Assembly: GCA_947601655.1 (NCBI GenBank)
Contig: CANQGG010000006.1
Span: 1-64,000, forward strand
Reading direction: 5' to 3'
Length of the DNA: 64,000 nucleotides
Source: an uncultured Akkermansia sp.
GTDB lineage: Bacteria > Verrucomicrobiota > Verrucomicrobiia > Verrucomicrobiales > Akkermansiaceae
The translations under genes were made by a program, and so were the position numbers. The notes under the pieces are model-generated. The model was given only the letters and a program-made list of their open reading frames with translations. It was not told the origin of the DNA and did not search any database. This document shows positions 3,419 to 53,727 of this stretch, one piece after another; positions within the stretch are counted from its first letter, which is position 1, and each line of letters begins with the position of its first letter.

Positions 3419-3508
3419 CAGGGCAAACGCATTGGGAATGCGTTTGCTCATGTACCATGTATTGTATTTTTCTCTGTTGCTTCACTTCTCTCAAATACGT
3501 TTGCCCTG
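3419..3508 (+). mobile_element. MITE-like element, short copy (90 bp)
   Basis: Ends CAGGGCAAACGCATT ... AATACGTTTGCCCTG (inverted); flanked by 10-bp direct repeats TTGCGAGTTT at 3409-3418 and 3509-3518; perfect GCAAACGCATT-GGG-AATGCGTTTGC hairpin at 5' end. Confidence 0.75.
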
Positions 3509-8398: not shown

Positions 8399-8580
8399 GG
8401 ATACGTATTTGCAATACGTATCCGTACACACTTAAAAAACTGATTATGTGAAGTCTAAAAAAACAAGAACAACCGCATTTTTCGTCGTTGAAGTAGATGT
8501 CTTCTCCCAATAAGAAATTGAATATGAAGGATAAGAATTTTCAAATTAAGGCTTGACATACGTATTGCAAATACGTACCC
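8399..8580. promoter_or_regulatory. Pair of inverted palindromes in the divergent autotransporter/mscS intergenic region
   Basis: TACGTATTTGCAATACGTAT at 8402-8421 and its exact reverse complement at 8558-8577, 136 bp apart. Confidence 0.5.
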
Positions 8581-31051: not shown

Positions 31052-31247
31052 GTATATCTCTTTCCTAATGCGATGTACAGCCAAAAAACAAAAAAATCGC
31101 ATAGCGACGTGGAATTCGGGAATTTTGAAAAAGACAAAAGGAAAAGGCGCGATTGTTGGAATTGCGAAGGATTTATTCATATAATTTATTGATTGATAAA
31201 TAGTAATTAAAATCTATACAGTACATCGCATTAGGAAAGAGATACAC
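31052..31247. promoter_or_regulatory. Candidate invertible promoter: inverted repeats bracketing a promoter-like sequence
   Basis: 31052-31078 GTATATCTCTTTCCTAATGCGATGTAC versus reverse complement of 31221-31247 (26/27 identical); interior TTGGAA (31156-31161) - 18 bp - TATAAT (31180-31185) on the + strand. Confidence 0.55.
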
Positions 31248-31272
31248 TACGCCCCGTTGGTGTTCCCGGTAT

Positions 31273-32310
31273 ATGCTTCAGCAAAGATCGACAGGTCTCG
31301 CGAATGCGCAGAGCAGAGCGCGAGAAGTGCCAGAGGTATCTGTGATCATGCCTGTGTACAACACACGGCAGGAATGGCTCGATACGGCTATTGGCAGCAT
31401 TCTGGGGCAAACCTTCAAAGATTTCGAACTTATCATCATTGACGACGGTTCGGACGAGACCACTCAGCGTCAGCTCAGCGGATATAAAGATTCGCGGATC
31501 GTGTACCTGCGGTTGGAAGAGAACATGAAGGCGGCCATAGCACGCAATGAAGGGCTGAAGATAGCGCGCGGGCAATATATCGCCTTCATGGATTCGGATG
31601 ACATTTCCCTGCCGGAAAGATTGGAGAAACAGGTAGAGTACATGGAAAGTCACCTGGGCGTCGGTCTGGTTAGCACGCGGATAGGAGACGCAGAGCATCC
31701 CCGGAGAGCAGAACGTCTGAGGGAGGCGAATTGTTCCAAACAGATTGAATGTGACCTGTTGCTCGTGGGCAACGTACTCTGCACTTCCTCGGTGATGGTG
31801 CGCCGGGAGGTTCTTCATCGGGAGAATGTGCAATTTTGTGCAGACTGTGTTCTTGCTCAAGATTACAAGATGTGGCTGGATCTTCTGGGCAGGACAGAAT
31901 TTGGGAAGATGGATGATGTTCTTGTGAGATACCGCAAGAGGAAGCCAAATCCGAAAAGAGAAAGGCAGGAGGAAATAGCCTGCCGTATACAAACAGAGAC
32001 ACTTAATCGGAAATTCGGGGTACGAGTGGATGAGGCAGAGATGCTCGTTTCGTTCCTGCACGGCAAAGAGGTATCAGGTGACGGAGAACTCTTGCTTGCG
32101 ACTATGAACCATATCATCGAACAGTTGGAAGTCGGAGGATATAAAAGACAGTATGCGGAAGCTTCCCTTCAGTGGGCGCTTCGCAAAGTTCTTCACCGCA
32201 CGAGAACGTGGCGCAGACAGTTGCGTTTGATACGGCTGCTGCACAACAACATTTGGCGGCCAAACTTGTTCTGTCGATTATTTTGCCTGTTTACAAGGGG
32301 AATTTTATGA
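31273..32310 (+). CDS. Glycosyltransferase family 2
   Basis: 345 aa; VSVIMPVYNTRQEWLDTAIGSILGQTFKDFELIIIDDGSDE...YIAFMDSDD. Confidence 0.92.
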   Translation: MLQQRSTGLANAQSRAREVPEVSVIMPVYNTRQEWLDTAIGSILGQTFKDFELIIIDDGSDETTQRQLSGYKDSRIVYLRLEENMKAAIARNEGLKIARGQYIAFMDSDDISLPERLEKQVEYMESHLGVGLVSTRIGDAEHPRRAERLREANCSKQIECDLLLVGNVLCTSSVMVRREVLHRENVQFCADCVLAQDYKMWLDLLGRTEFGKMDDVLVRYRKRKPNPKRERQEEIACRIQTETLNRKFGVRVDEAEMLVSFLHGKEVSGDGELLLATMNHIIEQLEVGGYKRQYAEASLQWALRKVLHRTRTWRRQLRLIRLLHNNIWRPNLFCRLFCLFTRGIL

Positions 32311-32497: not shown

Positions 32498-33751
32498 ATG
32501 AAAGTCGCTATCATAGGAACAGGGTATGTGGGACTGCCCACAGGAGTGGGACTGGAAAGTCTCGGACACGATGTCACCTGCATCGACTGTGACCGAGAGA
32601 AGGTGGAGAAGCTGCGTGCGGGAGTAGTGACGCTTTTTGAGGAGGGGCTCGAAGACCTTCTGAAGTCCGGGTTGCAGTCTGGGCGACTCACCTTCACCGA
32701 TTCCATGGAGCAGGGCGTGCGCGAAGCACAGCTCATCCTGTTGGCAGTGGGTACGCCCCCGGACCGTCAGACAGGGCAAGCCGACTTGCGCCATCTGTTT
32801 GGAGCCGTGAAACAACTGGCGCCCTTCCTGTCTTCTGATGTTGTCGTGGCTGTCAAGTCCACCGTACCCGTGGGCACGGGAGATGAAGTGGAGACCCTAT
32901 TGCGTCGTCTGAATCCGACAGCCCATGTGGAAGTTATTTCGTTGCCGGAGTTTCTGCGAGAGGGCTATGCTGTGCATGACTTCTTCCACCCGGCGCGTAT
33001 CGTCGTGGGTACGCAATCGGGGAGAGCCCGCGAGTTGATCCGTGAGCTTTATGCTCCCTTGCCCAACGTACCGAGATTCCTCTTCGTGTCGCGGCGTTCC
33101 TCCGAAGCCATCAAATACGCCTCTAACGCGTTCCTCGCGGTGAAGATCCATTACATCAATGAGATGGCCGACTTCTGCGAGGCAGCGGGAGCCAATATTC
33201 ACGAGGTCGCGCAAGGCATGGGGTTGGATTCACGTATCGGTCCTGTCTTCCTCAGACCCGGTCCTGGCTATGGCGGCTCATGCTTTCCGAAGGATACAAA
33301 GGCTATTGATCACATGGCGCACAAGTTAGGGGTGGAGCTCTCGCTCATCCGCGCAGCCATCAAGGGAAACAAGAAACGCCGTGAGAACATGGCGCAGCGC
33401 ATTATGAAGGAAGTTGAAGATATACCCTCCCCGAAGATAGCTATATGGGGACTGGCTTTCAAGGAAGGGACGGATGATTGCCGGGAGAGTCCCGCTGTGG
33501 AGATTGTGCAGCGCCTGGCGAATCACCACGTGGACGTGTGCGTCTACGACCCGCAGGCCATGACGACGGCGCGCCGCATCCTGGGCGACAGTGTCCGATA
33601 CGCTCCGGATATGTACAGCGCGGCGCAGGGAGCCGATGTGTTGGCCATTCTCACGGAATGGCCGCAGTTTGATGCGGCGGACTGGAAACGTGTGGCAGGC
33701 GGGCTGCGCTCTCGCCATATTTTAGACTTCCGCTTTTTTAAAAAACGATGA
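32498..33751 (+). CDS. ugd: UDP-glucose/GDP-mannose 6-dehydrogenase family
   Basis: 417 aa; MKVAIIGTGYVGLPTGVGLESLGHDVTCID; KYASNAFLAVKIHYINEMADFCE; GPGYGGSCFPKDTKA. Confidence 0.93.
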   Translation: MKVAIIGTGYVGLPTGVGLESLGHDVTCIDCDREKVEKLRAGVVTLFEEGLEDLLKSGLQSGRLTFTDSMEQGVREAQLILLAVGTPPDRQTGQADLRHLFGAVKQLAPFLSSDVVVAVKSTVPVGTGDEVETLLRRLNPTAHVEVISLPEFLREGYAVHDFFHPARIVVGTQSGRARELIRELYAPLPNVPRFLFVSRRSSEAIKYASNAFLAVKIHYINEMADFCEAAGANIHEVAQGMGLDSRIGPVFLRPGPGYGGSCFPKDTKAIDHMAHKLGVELSLIRAAIKGNKKRRENMAQRIMKEVEDIPSPKIAIWGLAFKEGTDDCRESPAVEIVQRLANHHVDVCVYDPQAMTTARRILGDSVRYAPDMYSAAQGADVLAILTEWPQFDAADWKRVAGGLRSRHILDFRFFKKR

Positions 33752-34136: not shown

Positions 34137-37100
34137 ATGAACCATATAAAAGCACAGCCCATAGAGGGCGGAACTATCCAGGTTCAAAATGCAGAGGGAG
34201 TGCCAGGCTCAACGGCATATTTTATTGCGCACAATAAAATAGATTATGTGCCAAAAGTGTCTGTCATTATACCCGTATACAATGCAGAAGTTTATTTGCG
34301 GGAATGCTTGGATAGCGTTATCAATCAAACCCTCAGAGAGATTGAAGTCATCTGCATCGACGATGGTTCAACGGATAGCTCTCTGTCCATCTTGAAGGAA
34401 TATGCACAAAAAGATCCACGCGTCAGCGTACTACAGCAAGAAAACCTGCATGCCGGAGTTGCTCGTAACGCAGGTATCGCTGTCGCACAGGGAGAGTATA
34501 TCCATTTTTTAGATAGCGATGATTGGGTAGATACAGACACGTATGAAAAGCTTACCGCTCTCATAACAAGACATGGTGTGGAGGTGCTTAAATTCTGCTC
34601 TTTTTCATACGATAACCAAAAAAAGGAGATCGTTAGCTCCTATTTTACGGACATGAGGGCACTTCAGGAAAATGATTTTGAGAAAAGCTATTCATTGAAT
34701 CATGATTTCAAACTTTTGGTGCGCATTTCGGATGCTCCGTGGTCAGGTATTTATTTGAGGTATTTTTTGCTGAAACATAACGTAAGGTTTGACAACCTCC
34801 TTTGCGCTAATGATACATCATTTTTTTACCGCTGCTTACTATATGCAAGAAAAGTTTACATCACGAAAGAAAAGTTTGTTTATTATCGTATCAACAACAT
34901 TTCTTCCTTAATTGGCATCCGGGCACATAACTTTGACTGTCAAATTCGCCAATTCTTCATCATCCTTAATATCATTTGCTCTTGTCGACAGAATATTATC
35001 AGTTGTGTTCGCCAGCATCTGATTAACAGTATCTATTACAGGTATTTAACCTATATCAAGAATCCGTACTTGGAGTCGGTGTGCAAGGACAAAATTCGAA
35101 CGCTTATCAGGGATTTCAACACCCATGTTTGTCGTGACGAAATTAACATAGAATATCTGGCATATTTTGATGATATTCGAGAGGAGAAAATGCCTGAAAG
35201 AGAGGGAAGAGAGATGGCCCGTATCGTGGCGCAAAATCGACTCGATTTCGAGCCAAAAGTTTCGGTAATTATTCCGGTTTATAATGTGGAAGAATTTCTG
35301 AAAGAATGCCTGGAAAGCGTTGTTAATCAAACGCTTCGTGAATTAGAGATCATTTGTGTGGATGACGCCTCCACAGATCATTCACTTGAAATTCTAAAAG
35401 GGTACGCGAGGGAAAACCCTCAAATTACTATCATCAGCAATTCAAAAAACATAGGCTCACCTGGAGCCGTAAAAAATTTGGGTCTTTCGTACGCTAAAGG
35501 GGCTTATATAGGCTTCGTTGATGCTGATGATTACATCGATACCCGTTATTTTGAAGAACTCTTTAATCTCGCTGTGCGTCATAGTGCTGATATAGCCGCA
35601 GTGAGAACGATTGTAAGATTTTCAGAAAATAATGAGTCCAAGACTGTCATTCCCTGCACCTCAAATGTCTTGGTTACAATGGCGCAGAAAAAAGAATTGA
35701 TGATAAAGTCTGGAAGCAATTGTAATAAAATATATAAGAGGGAACTTTTAGACACCTATCACATCCGATGCTATGAAAAGAGAAATATAGCAGAAGATAA
35801 TTACTTTTCTATGGTCGTCATGTCTGTTTCAGAAAAAATTGTCCTGACAGACAGAGTGGCGTATTACTACAGGAGGCGTAAAGGGAGTGTAACAGCTGAT
35901 GGACGAACAGCGAAAGATTTCCTTATTTTTGATGTGTACGCCAAGGTAGAGGCCTTCATTCGATCAGCATTTAAGAATAAAGAGGAACCCTATATTCAGG
36001 CTGTCAGAGAGCGAGAATATCAGGATTTCACTTGGTTCATTCACGACTGCGATGAGGAGTGGCAACTAGCCTTCAAAAAGAGATTGGCGGAAGAATTTCC
36101 AAATATTTACCATAAAATCGTCCCCAGGGATCTTATCGTTTCCTTAACTTCCTATCCGGCACGAATCGGAACTGTAAATCAAACGATTGAAAGCCTCCTA
36201 AACCAGAGTTTAAAGCCTGATAAGCTTATTTTGTGGCTGGCAGCGGAGCAATTTCCAAGTAAAGAAGTTGATTTGCCTCAAGAATTGCTCGATCTACAGG
36301 ACCAAGGGTTAACAATCGATTGGTATCACGATATTGGCTCTTATAAAAAATTGATCCCTACCTTGAAGAAGTATCCGGATGCAATCATAGTGACAGCAGA
36401 TGACGATAATATCTATGAGCGCGACTGGTTGAAGAAATTATTTGATAGTTATCAACAATTTCCTCACGATATACAATGCCACCGAGTCACGAAATTCTTG
36501 TATAATGGTGACTTTAGAATCATCAAAGGAGGACACGATTACTATAGGGGAAGCAGTTTCTTGAATAAGTTAGTAGGTCTTGGTGGGGTGCTTTATCCGC
36601 CCCATTGTTTTTACAAGGATATTCTGAATGAAGAGCTTTTTATGCGATTAGCTCCAACAAACGATGATCAGTGGTTTTGGATGCAAGCAGCTCTGAATGG
36701 GGTCCGAGTTCGCGTTGTCAACCAGCCTATCATTGAAGCGAATTACATTCCCGGAACACAGGAAAGGGGTCTAACGAAAATCAATGATGCGGGGGAAAAA
36801 TTGTTTTGGAAGGATTTTAACCGCCTTACAGCATATTATCCTAGGATTAAGGAAATGTTCATATTTGAATATAAACGAAAAAAATTAGGAATGATTAATA
36901 AGGCAACCCCTTATAAGCAAGAGCTTCAAAGTTGGTATCGTCGAATTTCTAAAAATAAGTCTTTCGATATTGACCATCCACAGACATTTAATGAAAAAAT
37001 TCAATGGCTCAAACTTTACGATTCCACACCCATCAAGACGAGATTAGCTGACAAGTATATGGTCCGCGAGTGGGTGAAAGAGAAAATAGGTGGGGAATAT

Positions 37101-38381
37101 CTTATCCCCTTGTTGGGCGTATATGATCGATTTGAGGAAATTGATTTTAATCGGTTGCCTGACCAGTTTGTGATCAAATGTAATCACGGGTGTGGTTATA
37201 ATATCATTGTCAAAGATAAATCTCAACTTGATCTCGTTGCTGCGAAATTAAAGGTAGATAAATGGATGTGTGAAAATTTTGCATTTAAATGGGGATTTGA
37301 GCTCCACTATAGAGATATTAACCCCAAAATCCTAGTAGAGCAGTACATGGATGATAATACGGGTGACTTAAGGGATTACAAATATACTTGTTTCGATGGA
37401 ATACCTGAATTTATTTGGGTAGATAGTGATAGACATACGGAACATAGAAGAAATTTGTATGACTTATCTTGGACACAGTTACCCTATAAGGTAAATACAA
37501 AATATGATACATTCCCTTCTCCTCCAAAACCAGATTGCTTGGAGGAAATGACAAAATTAGCTAGAATTTTGAGTAGTGGATTTCCTTATGTACGAGTGGA
37601 TTTTTATGTCATCAACGGGAGAATTTACTTTGGAGAAATGACGTTTACTTCTTCTTCTGGTACAGAAGACATTTATCCAGCATCCTTTGAAAAAATAATT
37701 TCAGAAAAACTAGTGCTTCCTTCTCTAGCCTATGATGTGGAAAGTAGCGAATATTATAACCCTCGAGAAAGATCGAGGAATAAACCTCGGTCATTCCTGT
37801 TGTCGAATTGGTACAGGAGACATTGTCTGCTGAAGAAATTCAAATCATTGTGTATTAAATACATCCAAAATCAGTTGCGTCAGGCACGAATCGATGTTAA
37901 GAATATTGGCACAGCAGAGAATGCCGTCGCAATCAAAGCGGAAAACAGTACAATTGTAAAGCCAGAGTGGTTTAAGAATGCACAGGGCGTTGGGCAGGTC
38001 CTGACAAGTTCGGAAGGAAAGGGAAAAATAGAAATTTCCATCATTGCCGCAGGTAAGCTTATGCTGACCTTCCGAGGATCAGATATGCGCTTTGGAGGAG
38101 AAAGATTTCCTCTATGGAATGACTACAAATCCATCAGGATTGACGGAAAAGAGATTCTCTCTTCGCCCATTGCTGTGTGGCATGACAAGCCATGGCGTTA
38201 TGAGATGCCCGTGAGAGATGGGCAGGAAGTGCGGGTTGAATATGAGCAGCAGACTCATCCCTACACACGGAAGGAATTGAAGGAAACTATCCTGAAACTC
38301 AACCCGAGCTCGGAAGTGATTCGTGGAAATATCGATGTGCTGGCTGACGAAATCGAGAAAATAATCACCCATGCAAAATAA
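34137..38381 (+). CDS. Multidomain glycan enzyme: two GT2 domains, a third GT-like domain, TupA-like ATP-grasp domain, C-terminal beta-sandwich-like domain
   Basis: 1414 aa; KVSVIIPVYNAEVYLRECLDSVINQT and KVSVIIPVYNVEEFLKECLESVVNQT; RDLIVSLTSYPARIGTVNQTIESLLNQSLKPDKLILWLA; TFNEKIQWLKLYD...DKYMVREWVKEKIGGEYLIPLLGVYD (TupA-like). Confidence 0.85.
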   Translation: MNHIKAQPIEGGTIQVQNAEGVPGSTAYFIAHNKIDYVPKVSVIIPVYNAEVYLRECLDSVINQTLREIEVICIDDGSTDSSLSILKEYAQKDPRVSVLQQENLHAGVARNAGIAVAQGEYIHFLDSDDWVDTDTYEKLTALITRHGVEVLKFCSFSYDNQKKEIVSSYFTDMRALQENDFEKSYSLNHDFKLLVRISDAPWSGIYLRYFLLKHNVRFDNLLCANDTSFFYRCLLYARKVYITKEKFVYYRINNISSLIGIRAHNFDCQIRQFFIILNIICSCRQNIISCVRQHLINSIYYRYLTYIKNPYLESVCKDKIRTLIRDFNTHVCRDEINIEYLAYFDDIREEKMPEREGREMARIVAQNRLDFEPKVSVIIPVYNVEEFLKECLESVVNQTLRELEIICVDDASTDHSLEILKGYARENPQITIISNSKNIGSPGAVKNLGLSYAKGAYIGFVDADDYIDTRYFEELFNLAVRHSADIAAVRTIVRFSENNESKTVIPCTSNVLVTMAQKKELMIKSGSNCNKIYKRELLDTYHIRCYEKRNIAEDNYFSMVVMSVSEKIVLTDRVAYYYRRRKGSVTADGRTAKDFLIFDVYAKVEAFIRSAFKNKEEPYIQAVREREYQDFTWFIHDCDEEWQLAFKKRLAEEFPNIYHKIVPRDLIVSLTSYPARIGTVNQTIESLLNQSLKPDKLILWLAAEQFPSKEVDLPQELLDLQDQGLTIDWYHDIGSYKKLIPTLKKYPDAIIVTADDDNIYERDWLKKLFDSYQQFPHDIQCHRVTKFLYNGDFRIIKGGHDYYRGSSFLNKLVGLGGVLYPPHCFYKDILNEELFMRLAPTNDDQWFWMQAALNGVRVRVVNQPIIEANYIPGTQERGLTKINDAGEKLFWKDFNRLTAYYPRIKEMFIFEYKRKKLGMINKATPYKQELQSWYRRISKNKSFDIDHPQTFNEKIQWLKLYDSTPIKTRLADKYMVREWVKEKIGGEYLIPLLGVYDRFEEIDFNRLPDQFVIKCNHGCGYNIIVKDKSQLDLVAAKLKVDKWMCENFAFKWGFELHYRDINPKILVEQYMDDNTGDLRDYKYTCFDGIPEFIWVDSDRHTEHRRNLYDLSWTQLPYKVNTKYDTFPSPPKPDCLEEMTKLARILSSGFPYVRVDFYVINGRIYFGEMTFTSSSGTEDIYPASFEKIISEKLVLPSLAYDVESSEYYNPRERSRNKPRSFLLSNWYRRHCLLKKFKSLCIKYIQNQLRQARIDVKNIGTAENAVAIKAENSTIVKPEWFKNAQGVGQVLTSSEGKGKIEISIIAAGKLMLTFRGSDMRFGGERFPLWNDYKSIRIDGKEILSSPIAVWHDKPWRYEMPVRDGQEVRVEYEQQTHPYTRKELKETILKLNPSSEVIRGNIDVLADEIEKIITHAK

Positions 38382-39168
38382 TCGGTCAGGGGAGGAGAGC
38401 ACAAGCTCTCTCGAGGGGCAACAAGTAACTTTGTTGAACCTAGCTCGGAAGTACGAGCAACGGTTTGCCGCCCTAGAGGGGAGGCTGGAGCAGTGCTACA
38501 ATGGGCTGAAGGAACTCAATTACGCTCATCTCCTGCGTGACGGTATGAGGGAGAGTTCTTGGGTAAAGAACCAAACTTTCAACTTACACAACTGGGCGGC
38601 CAATTACAGCTTTATCTATCTGCTGTTCCGCATACTGGACAAGATTGAGCCGCAAAACATCCTAGAGTTTGGCTTGGGACAGACGACAAAGTTGACGACG
38701 CAATATATTGCATACAAAAATCCTGAAGCCTACCTCAACGTATGCGAGCACAGCCTTGACTGGATCAAAATCTATCAGCCGGAGTTGCCAAAGCATGATC
38801 ATATCCGCATCAATCACCTCGATTTAGAGTATTTTGAGTACAGGCGCAAGAGAAATGATAAGTATGCAGGGTTGTTGGAATTTGTGGAAGATCGAAAGTT
38901 TGATCTAATTATTGTGGATGGTCCAGTGGGGGGAGGGAAGAATCTGCCGCGATCCAATGTGGTGGGCTTGATCGGGCATGGGAATTTGGCAGAGAATTTT
39001 GTGATCATTTTTGATGATGCTGAGCGCGTAGGAGAGAAAAATACAATCAGGAAGACGCAAGCAGCGTTGAGAAAGAAATCGATCGCTTTTCAAACTTTTG
39101 AACGTTTTGGCATTAAAAGGCAGGCCTACATCGTGAGTAAGAGCCGAGCCTTTGCTGCTTTCTTGTGA
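38371..39168 (+). CDS. Hypothetical protein, methyltransferase-like Rossmann region
   Basis: 265 aa; NILEFGLGQTTKLTTQYIAYKN...FDLIIVDGPVGGGKNLPRSNVVGLI. Confidence 0.6.
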   Translation: MQNNRSGEESTSSLEGQQVTLLNLARKYEQRFAALEGRLEQCYNGLKELNYAHLLRDGMRESSWVKNQTFNLHNWAANYSFIYLLFRILDKIEPQNILEFGLGQTTKLTTQYIAYKNPEAYLNVCEHSLDWIKIYQPELPKHDHIRINHLDLEYFEYRRKRNDKYAGLLEFVEDRKFDLIIVDGPVGGGKNLPRSNVVGLIGHGNLAENFVIIFDDAERVGEKNTIRKTQAALRKKSIAFQTFERFGIKRQAYIVSKSRAFAAFL

Positions 39169-39211
39169 AGAGCCTATCATTAAACTTGTGAAACATTCAG
39201 TTTGCTACAAT

Positions 39212-41047
39212 ATGAAAAGAATCATAAAAGCGTTACTGGGAGGGCTTGGGGTAAGCATTGTGCTGTGTTCTCTGTTCCCGAGTGCCTTCCTAAAAGATGA
39301 AGCCCGGTGGACATACCAAAGCGACGTTGGTCGGGTAGATGTCACTTTTGCTGGGGATGTTCGTGACGGGCAGATTGATGTCCAAGGGAAATCGCTGCGC
39401 GTGGATAGACCTCAATGGATACACGACGGCAAGCATAACCAAGGGGTTGTGGTTCAATTTCCTGTTTCCTACTTAAAAAGGACGTATGAAATAACACTGA
39501 AGCCCCGGGGAAATACCAAAGAAATGTCGTTAGGAATGAGTTTTCTCGGAAAAGATTTGCGAGTCCGTAACCGACGAAAACCTGCGTACGTCTGTTTTGA
39601 GAATATACGAGTTAATGGGAAGACCGTTGCTGAGGAGCGAACGGTTTGGCATGACAAGCCATTCAGGTATCACGTAAAGAACATGTCAGCCAATTCGACC
39701 GTCACATTAGGCTTTGAAATCCGGAAGCCGATCACCCCTTCGGATGTAAACTGGGGCCGCCTCATCGGGTTATTTGTCGTTGTCGGGCTGCTGATTTTCT
39801 ATTTTGGCGCCCTTAGAAGGCTGGGCAATAAAATTTCAACTTCCATGGGGAGGGAAGATGGGATGCAATGTAACATCAAGGATGGCACTCAAAGGCTGCA
39901 TACTGTCGAATCTTTAAGGATATCTGATCAAGACGAAAAATCTTCAGACGTCTATACTTTACCGTCAGAATATCCTTCACCTGCCGGAAAGTTCAAGAAT
40001 ATCGAACTTCTCCGCTTCCTCATGGCTTGGTCCGTTGCGGGCTTCCATACCATGCATGTAAAGAGTTTTGCACCGTATGGACTGTCTTTTCTTGTGGATT
40101 ACACCGGAAAGGGCTTTCTTGCCGTCCTGTATTTCTTTGTTGTTTCCTTCTTTTTCCTCGTATTGAAGACACGCCCGGATTGTTCCGTCTGGAAATTTGT
40201 GCGTAACAAATGGTTGCGTATGGCACCCTTGATCATTGTCGTCACATTGATAGCCTATGTACTCCACTTTTTTGGTTTCTGGGGGTGGAGTATGTCCGCC
40301 AATCTTGAACAATGCCTGCTCATTCACGATACATGCCCGGCTGATCGCTGGTCCAAATTTGTCAGCCCTGCGTGGTTCTGCTGTGTTCTCTTCCTGAGTT
40401 CCATTCTATACTTGTCGTGGATCAAGACGCTGTCCGCGAAGCATGTCGCTCTCGTCGTAACGAGTATAGCATTCATTGGCTTGGTACTATGGAGGAGCCT
40501 TCCTCAGTTGCCCAATTCTGGACAGCTTGTGGGGTTCATAGATTACAGTAGAGTTTTTGTGTTTTTAGGAATCTCATATGTGATTGCTAATGTGTTTGTT
40601 ACTACCACCCCCCCCGCACACAGTTTGGTAACTCTTTGTCGCCAATCGCTCACAAAAGTTTTTGTATACACTGCAGCCGAACTTTTTTTCCTGAGTATTT
40701 TCGTATGTTCATTGTACGGCGCACATTGGTACAAGCTTTCGGATCTTTTAAGCATTGTGTCTTTCGCGTGCCTGTTCCATCTGTTTATTTGGAAGGAGGG
40801 TTATTTGTCCCGTCTGCTGGAGCAGGATTGGTGCGTCTGGGTCGGACGCTACGCGTTTGGCATTTTCATCGTTCACAGGCTGATCTTCCAAGTTACATTG
40901 CACGTCCTCTCGCCAGGACACAAGGAATGGGCGCTCGCTCATCCGTGGTGTCTTCTTTTGAGTATGGTCTGTGCCATCATGCTTTTGGCGATGCTCGGTT
41001 ACCACTACATCGAGGTGCCCGTTATGCGCTACATTAAGTCGAAATAA
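39212..41047 (+). CDS. Membrane acyltransferase (family 3-like) with N-terminal beta-sandwich-like domain
   Basis: KNIELLRFLMAWSVAGFHTMHVKSF...FLAVLYFFVVSFFFLVLKT plus multiple TMs; start moved to MKRIIKALLGG at 39212. Confidence 0.75.
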   Translation: MKRIIKALLGGLGVSIVLCSLFPSAFLKDEARWTYQSDVGRVDVTFAGDVRDGQIDVQGKSLRVDRPQWIHDGKHNQGVVVQFPVSYLKRTYEITLKPRGNTKEMSLGMSFLGKDLRVRNRRKPAYVCFENIRVNGKTVAEERTVWHDKPFRYHVKNMSANSTVTLGFEIRKPITPSDVNWGRLIGLFVVVGLLIFYFGALRRLGNKISTSMGREDGMQCNIKDGTQRLHTVESLRISDQDEKSSDVYTLPSEYPSPAGKFKNIELLRFLMAWSVAGFHTMHVKSFAPYGLSFLVDYTGKGFLAVLYFFVVSFFFLVLKTRPDCSVWKFVRNKWLRMAPLIIVVTLIAYVLHFFGFWGWSMSANLEQCLLIHDTCPADRWSKFVSPAWFCCVLFLSSILYLSWIKTLSAKHVALVVTSIAFIGLVLWRSLPQLPNSGQLVGFIDYSRVFVFLGISYVIANVFVTTTPPAHSLVTLCRQSLTKVFVYTAAELFFLSIFVCSLYGAHWYKLSDLLSIVSFACLFHLFIWKEGYLSRLLEQDWCVWVGRYAFGIFIVHRLIFQVTLHVLSPGHKEWALAHPWCLLLSMVCAIMLLAMLGYHYIEVPVMRYIKSK

Positions 41048-41297: not shown

Positions 41298-43571
41298 ATG
41301 GAAAAGATTATAAGAGCATTGTTGGGAGGGCTTGTCATAAGCATGGTGCTGGCAGCACTGTTTCCAAGCGCCTTCCTGAAAGACGACGCCAAGTGGACAT
41401 ACCAAAGCGACGTTGGTCGGGTAGATGTCACTTTTGCTGGGGATGTTCGTGACGGGCAGATTGATGTCCAAGGGAAATCGCTGCGCGTGGATAGACCTCA
41501 ATGGATACACGACGGCAAGCATAACCAAGGGGTTGTGGTTCAATTTCCTGTTTCCTACTTAAAAAGGACGTATGAAATAACACTGAAGCCCCGGGGAAAT
41601 ACCAAAGAAATGTCGTTAGGAATGAGTTTTCTCGGAAAAGATTTGCGAGTCCGTAACCGACGAAAACCTGCGTACGTCTGTTTTGAGAATATACGAGTTA
41701 ATGGGAAGACCGTTGCTGAGGAACAAACGGTTTGGCATGACAAACCGTTTAGATATCATGCACAGAATATCTCTGACAATTCGGTGGTCACATTGAGCTT
41801 TGACATCCAGAAGCCGCTTGCCCTCACAGACATTAGATGGGAGCGTGTTATTGGATTATTCATGGCTTGTTCGTTGCTTATCTTTTGTTCCGATATCCTA
41901 AAACGGCTGGTCAATAGGTTCAATAAGAAGAATATCGTTCAAGTAATTGCAGAAAACTACAGAAATATTGACGGAGTGTATCGGAGATCTTTTTGGATCA
42001 TCTTTGGCATACTTTGCCTTGCCTTTGGGTTCCACGCTATTCAATTTATGTGGGGTAATCATGATTGGGATTATGCAGAAGGTTCTGCATTCTCGTGGGA
42101 TGGTCGTGCGTGGGAAGGGCGGTATGCACTTAATGTATTCAAAAAATTGTTCTTGGGAGGAGTTTATTTGCCTCTTATCTACGATGTCGTCTCATTTCTG
42201 TTTCTTGCACTCAATGCCGTGCTGCTTTGCATTTATTGGAGATTGAAAAAAAGGATCATTTACTTCGTATTATGCGGGCTCATTCTGACGGCTCAGCCGT
42301 TTACATTATGCATGATGTATTATGTGCATATGCTTCCCGAGACTTTCATTGGTGTCACCCTTGCTCTGACTGCACTTATGCTGCTCGAGAAGATAGCATT
42401 CGAGAAAGGTTCTCGCACGAGGAAGGTGGTTTGCTCACTTCTTTCCATTGTTCTGCTTAACCTGTCACTGGCCATGTATCCTGTTTTGCTTAACACCATT
42501 GCCGTGGCTTTCGTTGGTAAGCTGTTAGTAAAATCGTTCGAATGGGATAGCTCATGGGGGCAGTTTCGATCCTATTTTGTCCCATACGCTGTTTCAGCGA
42601 TCAACATTGTCTTTGGGATTCTTTTTTACAAACTCGTACTTACATTTGTGTTCTCTCTATATGGTGGCTACAACGCGCAAACGCTACCCCTTGACCAGAT
42701 CCCGGAACGTCTAGTTGTTTTATTCGAACAAAGTTTCCGTCAATTGTGCGAATATCCTTTTCCCTTTATCTCCCAAGGCATTTTGTGGGTCTTTTTAGGG
42801 TTTACGGTTCTCGTGGTGTTGCACATTTGTTCGATGGGAAACTTCAAGCAAAAAATCGTGAGAGTGCTTTTACTTGGTGGAGCGCTCTTCGCGACGCAGA
42901 CTGCCATGATAATTGCTAATGAGCACCTCATAGCTGGACGGATAGAATTATTTGGGTTGGTCGTTTTTGAAACACTTGTGATGGTTGTAGTATTTACGAA
43001 ACTCAAGAAACTACACAATTTGAGCGTCCTTGCGACAACAGGAGTTATCTGGATGTCCATCATCAATGACTTAGATTGCCTTCGTGTCTGGAAACTGGGA
43101 TTCGATGCAGAAAAAATGCTCTGGAACAGAGTGCTGGCACGTATGGAAATCCAAAAAGATTTTGACGTAAATCGAAAATACAAGGTTATTCAGATTGGAC
43201 GCCCCATTTCTCTGCGCCTTCGCTTTTATAAGAAATTGCGACCTTCAAAAAGAGTCCATAACTACGGGAACAGCCTATTGTCATACAGCTATGATGCTCC
43301 TTGGGATTTGTTTCATGCCTGCGAGTTTTATTATCAAACAGAGTTTAGAGGCGAGCACCCTCATCCTATCCATCCTAATACCAAGTACAGGGCTCAACTC
43401 AAGCGGCTGTGGAAAGCGGGTATCCTAGATAAAGCACGCGCGTGGCCACACGAGAACGGACTTATCGTGTGGAAAGACGTCATTCTCTTTGTCACCGATG
43501 CACAACTGCTTGAAGACTATAAAAAACAATTTGCCAAAGAATTTCCCAGAAAATTCGAGCAGAAATCATGA
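41298..43571 (+). CDS. Polytopic GtrII-like glycosyltransferase with N-terminal beta-sandwich-like domain
   Basis: 757 aa; N-terminal domain shared with 39212 and 43568 ORFs; long multi-TM region with WDGRAWEGRYALNVFKKLFLGGVYLP. Confidence 0.6.
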   Translation: MEKIIRALLGGLVISMVLAALFPSAFLKDDAKWTYQSDVGRVDVTFAGDVRDGQIDVQGKSLRVDRPQWIHDGKHNQGVVVQFPVSYLKRTYEITLKPRGNTKEMSLGMSFLGKDLRVRNRRKPAYVCFENIRVNGKTVAEEQTVWHDKPFRYHAQNISDNSVVTLSFDIQKPLALTDIRWERVIGLFMACSLLIFCSDILKRLVNRFNKKNIVQVIAENYRNIDGVYRRSFWIIFGILCLAFGFHAIQFMWGNHDWDYAEGSAFSWDGRAWEGRYALNVFKKLFLGGVYLPLIYDVVSFLFLALNAVLLCIYWRLKKRIIYFVLCGLILTAQPFTLCMMYYVHMLPETFIGVTLALTALMLLEKIAFEKGSRTRKVVCSLLSIVLLNLSLAMYPVLLNTIAVAFVGKLLVKSFEWDSSWGQFRSYFVPYAVSAINIVFGILFYKLVLTFVFSLYGGYNAQTLPLDQIPERLVVLFEQSFRQLCEYPFPFISQGILWVFLGFTVLVVLHICSMGNFKQKIVRVLLLGGALFATQTAMIIANEHLIAGRIELFGLVVFETLVMVVVFTKLKKLHNLSVLATTGVIWMSIINDLDCLRVWKLGFDAEKMLWNRVLARMEIQKDFDVNRKYKVIQIGRPISLRLRFYKKLRPSKRVHNYGNSLLSYSYDAPWDLFHACEFYYQTEFRGEHPHPIHPNTKYRAQLKRLWKAGILDKARAWPHENGLIVWKDVILFVTDAQLLEDYKKQFAKEFPRKFEQKS

Positions 43572-45861
43572 ATAGCAAAATTTACAAGTTCGCTATGAAG
43601 AAGATTGTGAAAGGCTTATTAGGAGGTTTGGGAATCAGTGTTGTGCTGGCAGCTCTAATTCCAAGCCTATTTCTGAAAGACGATATTAAGTGGAGGATCC
43701 AAAGCAATTTTGGTCGAGTAGATGTTGTGTTTTCCGGAGATATTCGTGACGGGCAGATCGATGTTTATGAAAAATCACTGCGAGTGGATAGACCTCGGTG
43801 GATAAGAGATGGCAATGGTAACCAAGGAGTCGTGGTTCAATTCCCGGTTTCTTTCTTGCGAAAGACCTATCAAATGACGTTGAAGCCCAAGGGAAATACC
43901 CAATCAACCTCTTTGGTGGTGAGTTTTCTCGGGCAGGATTTGAGAGTTGGTGAACAGATGAAGCCTGCCTACGTTCGTTTCGAGAATATACGACTCAACG
44001 GGAAACTTATTGCTCAGGAGGCGACTGTTTGGCACAATAAACCGTTCTTATACAGAGCAAAAATGCTAAGATCGGACAAGATTTGGCGTTAAGCTTCGAT
44101 ATCCAAAAGCCTGTTTTTTTCACAGATATCATATGGAACAGATTGATAGGAATGTTCCTTGCTTGTTCATTGCTTATTTTCTGTTCTGATATCCTAAGAC
44201 GGTATTCATTGGAGACAACAGGAGGTGATATTCTTCAAGTAATTGCTAAAAGTTATTCAGACATCAACATGGTTTATCGTCGAGCCTTTTGGATCATTTT
44301 TGGCGTTCTCTGTTTCGCCTTCGGATTCCATGCTATCCAGTTTATGTGGGGAAACCACGATTGGAACTTTGTAAGTAATTTTAATTTGCTTCCGTGGGAC
44401 CAACGCATCTTCGAGGGAAGGTACGCTGTTTATTTGTTTAAAAAGGCGTTCTTAAGAGGCGTTTATTTGCCCTTTATCTACGATGTTATCACATTCCTCT
44501 TTCTTGCACTGAATGCGGTATTGCTTTGTATTTATTGGAAATTGGAAAAACGGGTCGCTTATTTTTGTCTATGCGGTCTCATTTTGACGGTGCAGCCTTT
44601 CACATTGAGCATGATGTACTATGTGCACATGCTGCCGGAGGTTTTCATGGGTGTCACCCTTGCTCTGATTGCCCTGATACTAAGCGAGAAGATCACATTT
44701 GAGAAAAAAAGTTCTCTCATGAGGAAGGGAGCCCTCGCTGTACTCTCCTTTGTCCTGATTAACCTGTCGCTGGCAACGTATCCTGTCCTGATTAACACCA
44801 TTGCCGTAGTCTTTATTGGCAGGCTATTAGTGCAGTCATTTGAGTGGGATGGTTCGTGGAAACATTTTAAATCTTGTTTTGTCCCGCTTTCAATACCAGT
44901 GATTTGCATCGTCCTAGGCATTGGTTTGTACAAATTCATTATCACTTTCGTATTTCCTGTGGAAGATTTTTATAATACAAAAACACTGCCATTAGAACGA
45001 TTGCCGGAGAGATTATTTGTTCTGTTTAAACAGAGTCTTTATCAATTGTATGAATACAATTCTCCCTTCATCTCCCGAACCGTTCTATGGGTTTTTTTAG
45101 GCTTTACGATTCTCGTGACTCTGTACGTTTGTTTAACGGGAAACTATAAACAAAAATTGGTTAGACTGACCCTACTTGTAGGGTCGCTCCACGCAACTCA
45201 AGCTACTATGATGATATCATCTGAACATATCATTGCTGATAGAATAGAATTATTTGGATTAGTCCCGTTTGAAATGCTCATGACAGTTTTGGTGTTTACC
45301 AAACTAAAGAAGATGCACAATTTAAGTATTTTTGCAGTAATGGGAGCTATTTGGATGTCCATCATCAATGATTTAGATTGCCTTCGTGTCTGGAAACTGG
45401 GATTCGATGCAGAAAAAATGCTCTGGAACAGAGTGCTGGCGCGTTTGGAAACACAAAAAGATTCTGATGTGAATAAAAAATATAAGGTTGTCCAAATTGG
45501 ACGAATATCGATGAGACCTCGCTTTGCGACAAACAGTACGTTCGGCTCTGAATATTCTTTGCCACTCGTGAGCTTCGGATACGATTTTAACCCATTCGAT
45601 GGGCTGAATTTCTATTGGCCAATAAATTTTGTTTCATTTAAATGCGATACAAAGCTTAAATATTTAAAGCCTGTGTGTAAGGATCAACTGAAACTCCTGC
45701 ATGAAGCGGGCATCCTAGACAAAGCACGTGCGTGGCCACACGAGAACGGACTCATCGTGTGGAAGGATGTCATCCTCTTTGTCACCGACGCAAAACTGCT
45801 TGAGGAGTACAAAAAGCAACTCGCCCATGAATTTCCCAGACAACCTCAAATAAAGCCATAA
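43568..45861 (+). pseudogene. Paralogue of 41298-43571 split by a frameshift (ORFs 43568-44092 and 44083-45861)
   Basis: ORF 1 ends TVWHNKPFLYRAKMLRSDKIWR*; adding one A to the A5 run at 44059-44063 gives ...YRAKNAKIGQDLALSFDIQKP, joining the ORFs in line with the paralogue. Confidence 0.75.
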
Positions 45862-45862
45862 A

Positions 45863-46342
45863 ATGTACAGATTCCTATGTTACACAGCCGGCAGCGGATT
45901 TGGTGTCGGCTACTTTCCCTTCGCCTCCGGAACTGCCGGTTCGGCGGCTACTCTGCCCGTTGCTTTTGGCATCGCCTACTTCTACGGGACGTGGGGACTG
46001 CTGCTCACCGCTGTTGTCACCTTCTTTATAGGTGTCGTCGCATCCAAAGAAATTCTCAAATACACCAAACACGACCCCTCGCTCATCATCATCGACGAGG
46101 TTGTGGGACAGTTGGTCACTTTAGCCTTTGTAGGCCCTTGCCTGGTTGAAAACCTGCACGCTTGGTGGGCGTACATCGCCGGTTTCTTCCTGTTCCGACT
46201 CTTCGATATCGTCAAACCTCAACCAGCCAAATGGGCGGATCAAAAGGTACTCAACGCCTGGGGCGTGATGCTCGATGATGTATTCGCCGGGATCTACGCC
46301 GGTCTCTTCCTCCTCCTCATCAACTTCTATATCGTCTCATGA
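45863..46342 (+). CDS. pgpA: Phosphatidylglycerophosphatase A family
   Basis: 159 aa; GFGVGYFPFASGTAGSAATLP...HDPSLIIIDEVVGQLVTL...FRLFDIVKPQPAKWAD. Confidence 0.88.
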   Translation: MYRFLCYTAGSGFGVGYFPFASGTAGSAATLPVAFGIAYFYGTWGLLLTAVVTFFIGVVASKEILKYTKHDPSLIIIDEVVGQLVTLAFVGPCLVENLHAWWAYIAGFFLFRLFDIVKPQPAKWADQKVLNAWGVMLDDVFAGIYAGLFLLLINFYIVS

Positions 46343-47205
46343 AAACCTGGTTGAAACTTATTCGCATCAAGCAGTGGGTCAAGAACGCCTTTGTCCTTGC
46401 GCCTCTCTTGTTCTCCTTTCAATTTACGGACATCCCCTCCGTTCTCTCGGCACTCTACGCCTTCCTCGCATTCAGCCTTATCGCCAGCGCCCACTACATC
46501 GTCAACGATATTCAGGACCGCGAAAAGGATGCCCTGCATCCTCAAAAGAAATATCGCCCGATAGCCAGCGGAGCCATCTCGGTGAAGAAAGGGTTGGCGG
46601 CGACCTTATTCCTACTGTTGGGAGGAACATCTGTTTTAATCCTGCTGGGTGACATCAAGGTTGCGGGGGTCATCGGACTCTATCTGCTCATCAACGTCCT
46701 CTATTCCGGGAAGCTGAAAAATATCGTTCTGTTGGATGTGTTCGTGATCGCCATAGGATTTGTGCTGCGGGTGTACGCAGGAGCCTATGCCATCCATGAG
46801 CCGGTATCGAGCTTTATCTTCATGACGACGCTGTTTTTATCGCTCTTCCTGGGATTTGCGAAGCGCAAGGGTGAGCTACTGCGGCATGGAACGGCATCGC
46901 GGACGGTGCTCAAAAAGTACGGAAAGGAAATGCTCAATGCTTATCTGGCCGTCACGATGGCGCTTACGATTATGTCCTACGCCCTCTGGACCATGGAGAC
47001 CAATACGAAGGCTAATCTGGGAACGCACCGCATGATCTACAGCATCGTTTTTGTGGTATTCGGGATGTTCTGGTACGTGTATATTCTGGACAAGTATAAC
47101 GGTTCGGAGGATCCGACGGAGAACCTGTACAAGGATAAGGCCCTGTTGCTGACGTGCTGCACCTTTGTCGGCTACGTGCTTCTGTTGTTCACGAACATTG
47201 TATAA
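46339..47205 (+). CDS. UbiA-family prenyltransferase (decaprenyl-phosphate phosphoribosyltransferase-like)
   Basis: 288 aa; IRIKQWVKNAFVLAPLLFS...SAHYIVNDIQDREKDALHPQKKYRPIASGAIS; start overlaps pgpA stop. Confidence 0.82.
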   Translation: MKTWLKLIRIKQWVKNAFVLAPLLFSFQFTDIPSVLSALYAFLAFSLIASAHYIVNDIQDREKDALHPQKKYRPIASGAISVKKGLAATLFLLLGGTSVLILLGDIKVAGVIGLYLLINVLYSGKLKNIVLLDVFVIAIGFVLRVYAGAYAIHEPVSSFIFMTTLFLSLFLGFAKRKGELLRHGTASRTVLKKYGKEMLNAYLAVTMALTIMSYALWTMETNTKANLGTHRMIYSIVFVVFGMFWYVYILDKYNGSEDPTENLYKDKALLLTCCTFVGYVLLLFTNIV

Positions 47206-47217
47206 AAAACGAAATCC

Positions 47218-47598
47218 ATGAAAAACATCTTACTCATTTTATCCAGTGTGGCATTGAATGCCTTGGCACAACTGTTCATCCGGCAGGGGATGCTCAAGAT
47301 AGGCTCCGTTTCCCTGAAGCTCGAGCAGCTTTGGAATATGTGCATCAGCTTCTTCTCCAACCTCTACCTCTGGGGGGGCATGCTTTGCTATGCCGTATCC
47401 ATCATTTTGTGGATGGTGGTTCTCTCGAAGGTCAATGTGTCGCTGGCTTATCCCTTTTCCTGTGTCGGGTTCATCATCACCGCTGTCTTGGCTTCTTTTT
47501 TCCTCAACGAGCCTCTTACTCTACAAAAATGCGTTGGGATAGCGGTCATTTGCCTGGGGGTCATCATTTTAACTTACAGTAAAGATCTCACATCATGA
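47218..47598 (+). CDS. EamA/SMR-type small transporter (putative lipid-linked sugar flippase subunit)
   Basis: 126 aa, four TMs; SKVNVSLAYPFSCVGFIITAVLASFFLNEPLTLQKCVGIAVICLGVIIL. Confidence 0.7.
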   Translation: MKNILLILSSVALNALAQLFIRQGMLKIGSVSLKLEQLWNMCISFFSNLYLWGGMLCYAVSIILWMVVLSKVNVSLAYPFSCVGFIITAVLASFFLNEPLTLQKCVGIAVICLGVIILTYSKDLTS

Positions 47599-48560
47599 GA
47601 TACGTCATTATAGGTGGCTCCGGCTTCGTCGGGAAGGAACTAGGCAATCTCTTGCTTCAAAGAGGGGAGGAAATAATTAATTTGGATCTCATCCCTTCAG
47701 GGATACCCGTGCAAGATGTGCAGCAAGACATCACCCGGGAAATCCGATTTCAATTCCGACCGGATGATATCGTCGTGCACTTGGCGGCCAATCAATACCA
47801 TCACAAAGTGCCCAAGAAAAACAGGCAGGCATTTTTTGAGGAAGTCAATGTAGCGGGCACGCAAAATATATTGAAGAAGATGTCGGAGGACGGCGCGCAT
47901 CAGATGGTTTTTTTCAGCACGGATATGGTTTACGGTAAACCTCAGTATCTGCCGGTGGATACAAAGCACGTGCAGAATCCATTTGGATACTACGGGAAGA
48001 GCAAAAAGGCAGCCGAGGCCATTTGTGAGGAATACCGGCAAGAGGGGATGAACATCACGATATTCCGTCCCCGTATGATCATCGGCAAGGGGCGGCTGGG
48101 AATTCTGGTGAAGCTGTTTAAGTTGATAGAGTACAACCTGCCTGTCCCCATGATCGGAAGCGGGAGGAATTATTATCAAATGGTTTTCGTACAGGATTGC
48201 GCGGAAGCTATCGCCCAGGCCATCCGGCATCAATTGCCCAATAAATCCTACAATCTTGGCTCCATCAATCCACCGACTGTTAAGGAGCTACTAGGACAGG
48301 TGATAAAAAGAAACCACTCGAAATCCATCCTCATCCCGACATGGGGAAAGGCGGTGAAGATGACATTGGGCGTGTTGGGCTGGCTGGGTTTGGAAATGAT
48401 GTACAAAGAGCAATACATGATAGCTGATGAGAACTACATCATCGACATATCTGAGACACGGCAAGAGCTGGACTGGACACCTCAATTTAACGACACCGAC
48501 ATGATGCTGGCTGCCTTTGAGGAGTACCAAAAGCTGAAGGATAAGACGGGAAAGAATTGA
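47595..48560 (+). CDS. NAD-dependent epimerase/dehydratase
   Basis: 321 aa; MRYVIIGGSGFVGKELGNLL...FGYYGKSKKAAEAICEEY. Confidence 0.85.
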   Translation: MRYVIIGGSGFVGKELGNLLLQRGEEIINLDLIPSGIPVQDVQQDITREIRFQFRPDDIVVHLAANQYHHKVPKKNRQAFFEEVNVAGTQNILKKMSEDGAHQMVFFSTDMVYGKPQYLPVDTKHVQNPFGYYGKSKKAAEAICEEYRQEGMNITIFRPRMIIGKGRLGILVKLFKLIEYNLPVPMIGSGRNYYQMVFVQDCAEAIAQAIRHQLPNKSYNLGSINPPTVKELLGQVIKRNHSKSILIPTWGKAVKMTLGVLGWLGLEMMYKEQYMIADENYIIDISETRQELDWTPQFNDTDMMLAAFEEYQKLKDKTGKN

Positions 48561-48699: not shown

Positions 48700-48760
48700 C
48701 AGGGCAACCGCATTAGGAAATGCGTTTACTTATTTACGATTTAATTCATTTACGATGTCG
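48700..48760 (+). repeat. Partial MITE-like element, 5' end
   Basis: CAGGGCAACCGCATTAGGAAATGCGTTTACTTATTTACGATTT... matches the 5' end of the family. Confidence 0.55.
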
Positions 48761-51582: not shown

Positions 51583-51989
51583 GCTCTTGCCTCTGTTTTT
51601 AATTGATAACGATAAGCTCTTTTCAAATTATCTCCGGTTTTATCTAAGGAATGGGTAATTTGCTTTTGAATCCGTTGTAAATCCCGTAGATACATCAAGA
51701 GAGGGAAATCGTCGAAATTTCAATCATCACACACCTGCCAAGAAGGAGACGAACACTCCTTCAGGCGATTCCTTCCATTCCTACGCGAGAATACCGAGCA
51801 AACAGCTTGCTCCCATCTCTGTCTCTTGGACTTCACCCTTTCTGCTAATATAACTTTCTGCGCCATGCTATACTGCCTTGTATCACGAGAAAAGCAATAT
51901 TGCAAGCTTATAAATCTGGACACTCTGAAAATTGGTATGCCTGTTCTGGAAAAACAAGCGAGTGTTACATCCATCCAAAATAAAGCCCT

Positions 51990-52115
51990 GTTGAAAAAAG
52001 TTGAATTTTGCGTCAAATTTGCCCCAAATTCAACGCAAATTCAACATGCGGTCTCTTTTATCTATTAATAATCTGGCTATTCAACCATGCGAAATTCTGC
52101 GTCAATTCCCCTGAC
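51990..52115 (-). repeat. ~120-bp hairpin repeat, copy 2 (inverted relative to copy 1)
   Basis: Reverse complement GGAATTGACGCAGAATTTCGCATGGTTGAATAGCCAGATTATTAATAGATAAAAGAGACCGCATGTTGAATTTGCG... aligns closely to copy 1; hairpin 52000-52045. Confidence 0.8.
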
Positions 52116-52204
52116 AGCATCCCCTCAGGGTGGTACAGCATGAACTGATAGATAGTGACTCAAATCCGCCGCATCCGTCCCAAGAAAAAGAGATCCCAAC
52201 ACGC

Positions 52205-52350
52205 AAGTCATTTACGATTTGCAAAATTTGGCGAGCGAAGCTCGCGGGGAGCGAGGCAGATGCGAACGCGTACCCATCAAGCAACGTACGGACGTGATTA
52301 GAAAGGGGCGGGGGCAGGCGGAGCTTGGCCATTTACGATTTGGGGAGTTA
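52205..52350 (+). repeat. Degenerate internal module of the dispersed intergenic repeat
   Basis: TCATTTACGATTTGCAAAATTTGGCGAGCGAAGCTCGCGGGGAGCGAGGC matches 49350-49400 and the core at 12.2 kb. Confidence 0.45.
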
Positions 52351-52410
52351 GCACGCGTTGTGCGGAGGCAAGTGGTGTGTCTCGCATCCCGCACGCGAAA
52401 AATGGGTTGA

Positions 52411-53123
52411 ATGCGATCGGAGAAATTTTTGAGGGGCACGTGTGGGTGTAAAAGGTACCACAAAAAAATCCAAACGCTCGCCCGCCGCTACCCGCGCTAC
52501 ATCCGCTGGAGCGACGAAGACAAATGCTACATCGGCTCCTTGCCCGATCTAGACGGCGATTGCACGCACGGCGATACCCAGGGCAAACGCATTTGAGAGA
52601 AGGTCATCAACAGAGAAAATGCTCTTATTGACTGATATCCCTGTTTATACGTATCAAAATCATCACAACAACCGGTCATCATAATGATGGATCTACAGGA
52701 ATCTCTGCACACGTTAATGATCCGAAAAGAATCTGCGCAACACGCACATTATTAATAAATCGTACATCGTACATAGGCAAACGCATTTCTAATGCGTTTG
52801 TCCTGCGGCGATACCCCGGACGAAGTCGCCCGCAACCTCGATGAATGCGCGGAAATCTACGCCGCCGATTGCCTGGATGACGACACTCCGCTCCCCGAGC
52901 CAAACTCCTTCATCGTCGCCCCGTCCCGCTTCCGCCAGCAAGGCGCCACCGGCCGCGTCCAAGCCCTGCGCAAATCCCGCGGCATGTCGCAAAGGACTTC
53001 GCCGCATTCCTCGGCGTGAGCGCATCCTCCTTCATCAAATGGGAAAACGACGTGCGCAAACCCTGCGGAGCAGTCGCCCGCCTGCTCGAAATCTGCGCCG
53101 CGCATCCCGAACTCGTCCGATAA
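52411..53123 (+). pseudogene. HicB-like antitoxin with C-terminal XRE-type HTH, interrupted by a MITE-like insertion and a frameshift
   Basis: 5' part KKIQTLARRYPRYIRWSDEDKCYIGSLPDLDGDCTHGDT; 3' part GDTPDEVARNLDECAEIYAADCL...VQALRKSRGMSQ, then in another frame KDFAAFLGVSASSFIKWENDVRKPCGAVARLLEICAAHPELVR*. Confidence 0.75.
52579..52805 (-). mobile_element. MITE-like element (227 bp) inserted in the hicB-like gene
   Basis: Ends CAGGGCAAACGCATT / AATGCGTTTGTCCTG; 10-bp target duplication CGGCGATACC at 52569-52578 and 52806-52815; interior is reverse-complement homologous to 53990-54172. Confidence 0.8.
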
Positions 53124-53214
53124 CCAAACCCATTGACACCCGCCCCACCGGCTTATCATACCCCCAGATAACCGCCCCCGCCTCGGACTTGCCGCCGCAA
53201 GAAACTGCGCACCG

Positions 53215-53502
53215 TGATCGGACAAAAATAGTGCACTGAACGGAGAAGAAGAGGGCAAGAGATTTATCGTTTGGACAAAAATAGTGAACCATAATGTCTG
53301 TATGGCAGACACAGACAAAGACCAAGAAGGTATAGCGAACATCATCGAAGCACGCAATAAATACAGAATGCTACGCACTCGCAAGGAGCGAACAGCTTTT
53401 ATCACAAAAGCAGCAAAGATATTCAAGTACAGTTGCAAGTACACCAATGGTTTGAACTTCTTGCTGGCTTACCATCTTCATCCGTGGGAAACGCATGAGT
53501 AA
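53215..53502 (+). pseudogene. Possible remnant of an integrase-type transposase N-terminus
   Basis: Short ORF with RNKYRMLRTRKERTAFITKAAKIFKYSCKYTNGL; preceded by direct repeats GGACAAAAATAGTG (53219 and 53274 areas) that look like IS ends. Confidence 0.35.
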
Positions 53503-53575
53503 TGTGTTAATGGGTCGAATGAGCCCAGAGAAGATTTTATTGGGACACGTGTGGTAGCATAAGCAAGATGCCGAG

Positions 53576-53690
53576 CGATTTGCAGCAGAATTTCGCATAT
53601 CGCAATATATTGAATATTAAATTTCAGCAAAGATGCAATTTCGAATTTGCGTTGAATTTGGGGCAAATTTGACGCAAAATTCAACTTTTT
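53576..53690 (+). repeat. ~120-bp hairpin repeat, copy 3
   Basis: GCAGAATTTCGCATAT...CGAATTTGCGTTGAATTTGGGGCAAATTTGACGCAAAATTCAACTTTTTT; 3' half essentially identical to copy 1. Confidence 0.75.
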
Positions 53691-53727
53691 TCAGCGCGGC
53701 CTTATTTGGGATGAACGATGGCAGACG

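Follow-up and report, generated by a model that had tools for sequence, protein, structure and literature searches.

Is the short AT-rich stretch in front of a polysaccharide-biosynthesis island of an uncultured Akkermansia sp. an invertible promoter and, if so, how would it work and in which state was it assembled? The window (the whole stretch of 64,000 nt that was analysed) is contig C6 of genome G000 (2.46 Mb, 109 contigs); the comparison set comprised 40 Akkermansia genomes. The first-pass annotation had described a 27-bp inverted repeat (26/27 match), a promoter-like sequence inside it and the start of a GT2 glycosyltransferase gene 25 bp past the right arm. All these are exact: the 27-nt arms, with 142 nt between them, are complementary at 26 positions (chance expectation for an inverted repeat of such quality, ~1e-7 per 64 kb) and the ATG of the GT2 gene is at 31273. 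The relevant features of the window are:

31052-31078, plus strand: left arm, putative recombination site GTATATCTCTTT-CCT-AATGCGATGTAC; presumed crossover triplet at 31064-31066
31065-31234, no strand: predicted invertible segment of 170 bp, measured between the site centres; homologous segments are inverted relative to their flanks
31074-31079, minus strand: putative −35-like end, T-run plus CTGTACA, homologous to CTGGACA of the G013 copies
31156-31185, plus strand: internal promoter-like TTGGAA-18-TATAAT, conserved only among copies of its own genome (G000)
31221-31247, minus strand: right arm, inverted, central triplet as in the left arm; presumed crossover at 31233-31235
31243-31248, plus strand: putative fixed −10-like TACACT, in the flank on the gene side and 9 nt beyond the centre of the site
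31273-32310, plus strand: GT2 glycosyltransferase gene that opens the island; the same switch precedes three paralogues (74-79% identity)
32498-33751, plus strand: UDP-glucose/GDP-mannose dehydrogenase family (UGD)
34137-38381, plus strand: two GT2 domains and a TupA-like ATP-grasp
39152-41047, plus strand: acyltransferase (Acyl_transf_3)
41298-45861, plus strand: two GtrII-type glucosyl transferases (41298-43571 and 44083-45861)
46339-48560, plus strand: last genes of the co-oriented island, UbiA prenyltransferase and NAD-dependent epimerase

The arms are themselves degenerate palindromes of the form GTATATCTCTTT-NNN-AAwGmGATrTAC; in the window element they read ATCTCTTT-CCT-AATGCGAT. A generic scan of the window for paired 7-3-7 palindromic sites returned only this element and a second one at 8403-8576; 20 shuffled sequences gave none.

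A search of G000 with the 223-bp element found four more copies that are nearly complete (91-97% identity), along with numerous arm-only sites. The paired site ATCTCTTT-NNN-AAwGmGAT, designated class A, occurs 13 times in G000, so that the same arms do exist elsewhere in the genome, a point the first-pass annotation had proposed to check; there are more than 50 such sites in 5 of the 40 Akkermansia genomes (five species). The pattern ATCTCTTTNNNAANNNGAT-N(136-160)-reverse complement had 13 matches in G000, 14 in G013, 15 in G015 and six in each of G019 and G024, while the reversed control pattern had 0 matches in the same genome search. A symmetrical relative, CGCATT-NNN-AATGCG (class B), is present in six other genomes. 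The Akkermansia motif of the literature, CGGATT-NNN-AATCCG, was matched 39 times in ten genomes; the only pair in G000 is on contig C22, in front of a recombinase gene. Judged by sequence, the window segment belongs to a family of dozens of predicted switches that share one design.

Two contigs of G000 (C19 and C29) end inside an arm of a window-type switch and a third (C49) ends inside an inverton arm; such ends might be the response of the assembler to mixed orientations or a repeat-induced break. The 12-mer CGCATTAGGAAA of the arm, noted in the first-pass annotation as shared with a hairpin, was found again at 48709. This copy belongs to another palindrome family, CGCATT..AATGCG with GGCAA/TTTGC-type flanks, located in the window at 3428, 12168, 48709 and 52782. 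These intergenic palindromes (GGCAAACGCATT..AATGCGTTTGC) contain a class-B-like site, but a single, unpaired one, and are possibly REP-like.

The central triplet of the site varies between loci and is the same in both arms of one locus in 107 of 109 cases from four motif classes. Arms of class A loci matched in 49 of 50 cases (permutation mean 7.3, maximum 19); the counts were 10 of 11 for class B, 29 of 29 for class C and 19 of 19 for the CGTATT class. Strand exchange requires identity across the crossover, so that matched triplets are what a recombination site should show; they would not be expected at the ends of a transposon or in paired operators. The palindromic arms, the matched central triplet and a segment of ~170 bp, all features of Akkermansia invertons, are present in the window element.

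Segments in both orientations between conserved flanks were found among homologous and other class A copies, in comparisons between loci and species. L159 (contig C20 of G013, a sister species) is a homologue of the window switch whose interior is 95.3% identical to that of its paralogue L157 when inverted and 36.9% identical when not; the flanks of L159 are still homologous to those of L157 and the window. The GT2 gene behind this flipped copy looks broken (the longest outward ORF has ~160 aa). L161 (G013) and L184 (G015) have both flanks in common (76% and 88% over 130 bp), with interior identity of 75.0% inverted versus 48.5% as it stands. For L182 and L196, both from G015 and with one clear flank, the values are 94.8% inverted and 50.0% uninverted. 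Copies inverted relative to conserved flanks indicate that inversion has happened; the inversions detectable by such comparisons are historical, between loci and species. The comparison of orientation among related genomes, suggested in the first-pass annotation, thus did reveal inverted homologues. The paired-site family, the matched triplets and the natural inversions of homologues lend strong support to the original idea of an invertible promoter before the glycan island, and we conclude that the segment 31052-31247 is very probably an invertible promoter switch (inverton) of the polysaccharide island.

The element has many scattered copies that resemble one another at their ends and hardly vary in length, as would also fit a MITE or insertion-sequence remnant, a non-autonomous mobile element with the arms as its terminal inverted repeats. 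This idea, prompted by copy number and voiced in the first-pass annotation as a possible origin of the arms, is extremely improbable. Homology of the flanks runs on through both arms into the gene, the palindromic arms have matched triplets, interiors that differ between loci recur inverted in place, no transposase was seen with the copies, and the match at 48709 is to a different repeat; flanking homology and in-place inversion led us to reject it. The 12-3-12 palindromes at near-constant spacing could also be a static pair of operators, i.e. regulator sites spaced for DNA looping with no inversion. A triplet that differs between loci but matches within a locus, together with the inverted homologues, led us to reject this reading; related motifs in the promoters of tyrosine recombinase genes argue against it as well, and we consider it highly improbable. 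A third possibility is an ancient inverton now locked, i.e. a former working switch without inversion in the present strain, and here the uniform orientation of all five G000 copies speaks in its favor. Still, arms and triplets remain matched, the ORF of a candidate recombinase is intact, and two contigs (C19 and C29) end in the arm of the window switch, as mixed orientations could cause; a locked state is, in our estimate, unlikely.

For the inverton, the position of the promoter was addressed by site-centred alignment. TTGACA-like hexamers peak at −14/−15, inside the segment, and TATAAT/TATACT-like hexamers are located at +9 in 45 of 98 flanks (shuffled maximum 7); the class A −10 signal partly overlaps the palindromic arm, and classes B and C give the same positions. 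Loci of the CGTATT class have TTGACA, or a sequence close to it, next to one arm and usually TATACT, TACACT or TATCCT beyond the opposite arm. With peaks on either side of it, the recombination site seems to divide the promoter. A split promoter is therefore the likely layout: the −35 would lie at one segment end and the −10, 17-18 bp away, would be fixed outside the arm, so that the crossover separates them.

The proposed switch would operate as follows. Both arms would be paired by a tyrosine recombinase whose gene lies elsewhere in the genome, and strand exchange across the identical central triplet would invert ~170 bp. An outward −35 (T-run plus CTGtACA) would lie at one end of the segment and the −10 would be fixed just outside the gene-side arm, the recombination site itself serving as the 17-bp promoter spacer. 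With the −35 end facing the gene, the promoter would be complete and the GT2-led polysaccharide island would be transcribed (ON).

ON/OFF states were assigned by hexamer geometry, as gene-side calls from ORF length and codon usage were too noisy for a clean statistic. At 13 loci, a single −35 end and a single −10 flank could be recognised clearly; the two elements are apart (OFF) in 11 of them and together (ON) in two. In the window, the −35-like end (T-run plus CTGTACA) faces left, away from the GT2 island; by the split-promoter rule OFF is likelier than ON, and we lean towards an island that would be OFF in the assembled orientation.

The first-pass annotation had called the island ON, on the strength of TTGGAA-18-TATAAT, which is indeed present (TTGGAA at 31156-31161, TATAAT at 31180-31185, 18 bp between). 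This is a variant of the inverton explanation that differs in promoter layout and state: a classical Bacteroides- or fim-like invertible promoter lying wholly inside the segment, with the island ON. The sequence scores 10/12 as a sigma-70 match, is found in all five G000 copies and is aimed at the GT2 gene in the present orientation. The split promoter of G000, if completed by inversion, would be a weak TGTACA-17-TACACT (8/12), so the OFF call may be wrong. However, TTGGAA-18-TATAAT is missing from the homologous switches of G013, where the sole good gene-ward promoter, TGGACA-17-TATACT, is formed in the opposite orientation, and the −35/−10 geometry around the arm repeats across motif classes. 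As the TATAAT promoter is limited to the G000 copies, the ON call is unsupported; the promoter inside the segment is a possible layout, though we doubt it.

If the segment inverts, as the inverton reading implies, which enzyme would act on it? Recombinase searches had no hits on the contig of the window, in agreement with the first-pass annotation, which saw none in the window; the search for tyrosine and serine recombinases that it proposed identified candidates elsewhere. G000 encodes ~12 related tyrosine recombinases and two Xer-like proteins; related tyrosine recombinases number 2-21 per genome in all of the 40 Akkermansia genomes searched. The candidates match PF00589, match Xer and invertase models weakly and do not come near the NCBIfam cut-offs for XerC, XerD and DNA invertase. 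Three PF00239 (serine recombinase) proteins of G000 are all on contig C14, unlinked to the sites, and were set aside. Five recombinase genes of G000 have a matched inverted-repeat pair directly upstream, and the motif follows the recombinase clade across species:

G000:C22:11946-12128: inverton-like promoter of a recombinase, motif CGGATT
G000:C12:29215-29385: inverton-like promoter of a recombinase, motif CGTATT
upstream of G000:C10:38016: inverton-like promoter of a recombinase, motif ATATGATT
upstream of G000:C15:9551: inverton-like promoter of a recombinase, motif AGCATT
upstream of G000:C63:306: inverton-like promoter of a recombinase, GTACGG-type motif

The class A motif was not found upstream of any of these five self-switched recombinases. 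The best candidate for the class A recombinase is the clade of G000:C2:96531-97640, an assignment that is correlative and that we favor slightly. This gene is an intact ORF with no switch of its own; its orthologues occur in 12 of the 13 genomes that have the class A/B motif and in 11 of the 27 that lack it (Fisher p=0.002, with no correction for phylogeny), and its clade is sister to that of C15, whose site AGCATT-NNN-AATGCT resembles CGCATT-NNN-AATGCG. The clades of C27 and C38, which lack clear orthologues in two class A genomes, were dropped as cognate candidates; the C10 clade is present in all class A genomes, but carries its own ATATGATT switch. A literature search for an Akkermansia inversion recombinase found none.

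Four paralogous polysaccharide loci of G000 (in the window and on contigs C1, C2 and C4) begin with the same switch and a GT2 gene. What follows GT2 on C1, C2 and C4 is a different set of sugar-nucleotide and transferase genes, with members of the GDP-mannose dehydratase, UDP-galactopyranose mutase, PEP mutase and GT8 families. The GT2 protein of the window has its nearest relatives (52-67% identity) in uncultured rabbit-gut Akkermansia, in genomes of isolates named ‘Lapin’ (rabbit). Another class A switch of G000 (on C88) adjoins another GT2 gene, and the class A inverton G000:C9:13011-13196 adjoins the VipA gene of a T6SS, which suggests a phase-variable type VI secretion locus.

The second inverton of the window (8399-8580) is of another class, with arms ACGTATT-TGC-AATACGT, TTGACA at the right inner end and TATCCT in the left flank. 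It lies upstream of a gene for a 1438-aa autotransporter (4005-8321, minus strand, PF03797); its motif is that of the switch before the C12 recombinase, and G000 has 12 such CGTATT-NNN-AATACG pairs. At 51972-54172, nested long inverted repeats (arms of at most 76 nt, 70-100% complementary, ~1.2-1.6 kb apart) surround a 132-aa ORF and are possibly a mobile element or a duplicated hairpin array.

In Bacteroides fragilis, many polysaccharide loci have an invertible promoter of their own, and the repeats are shared among them; the recombinase there, Mpi, is of serine type, and the segment contains the whole promoter. The predicted Akkermansia system is similarly a multi-locus capsule system with an invertible promoter and shared repeats at each locus, but its candidate recombinases are of tyrosine type and its promoter is apparently split across the crossover site. 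The candidates resemble the tyrosine DNA invertases (FimB/FimE, Xer-like) in matching PF00589; they differ in forming an expanded family, with motifs that track the clade and several members apparently self-switched. An inverted-repeat motif of Akkermansia and its promoter motif were reportedly found by Jiang et al. in 2019; the arms of the window do not fit the Jiang-type CGGATT-N(2-3)-AATCCG.

PMC11892184, which cites the Mpi capsule promoters of B. fragilis, presents the Akkermansia motif again as inverton group 138. Capsule phase variation by the cps1 inverton of Akkermansia muciniphila, with both orientations, ON/OFF states and PCR and read evidence, is described in PMC13343947 (mBio 2026). 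Like cps1 and group 138, the window element is from the same genus and has a short predicted invertible segment, palindromic arms with 6-3-6 site architecture and a position upstream of a capsule locus. Unlike them, with their CGGATT-NNN-AATCCG, arms of the window family are of the ATCTCTTT/CGCATT-NNN type, and the same switch sequence recurs at several paralogous polysaccharide loci. Since phase variation of Akkermansia capsule promoters is already published with a different motif, the finding here is a new motif class and layout; the parts of PMC13343947 and PMC11892184 available describe neither a split promoter nor a recombinase for the Akkermansia motif.

With at least three more polysaccharide loci of G000 behind the same switch, a cell population could display different coats, and the coat is probably switchable on and off. 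A broader reading, on which we are evenly divided, is a multi-channel inversion network of Akkermansia, in which paralogous tyrosine recombinases with their own addresses (clade-specific flanks plus locus-specific triplet) would flip a −35 to and from a fixed −10, several of them being self-switched and controlling their own phase; the channels would include alternative polysaccharide loci and at least one autotransporter. The correspondence between sites and recombinases provides named gene-site pairs that can be tested singly, and with the split −35/−10 layout, sequence would suffice to predict whether a locus is ON or OFF. Self-switched recombinases, if real, would add a feedback layer, against the general trend given in PMC11892184, where inverton promoters do not, as a rule, drive the invertases found near invertons.
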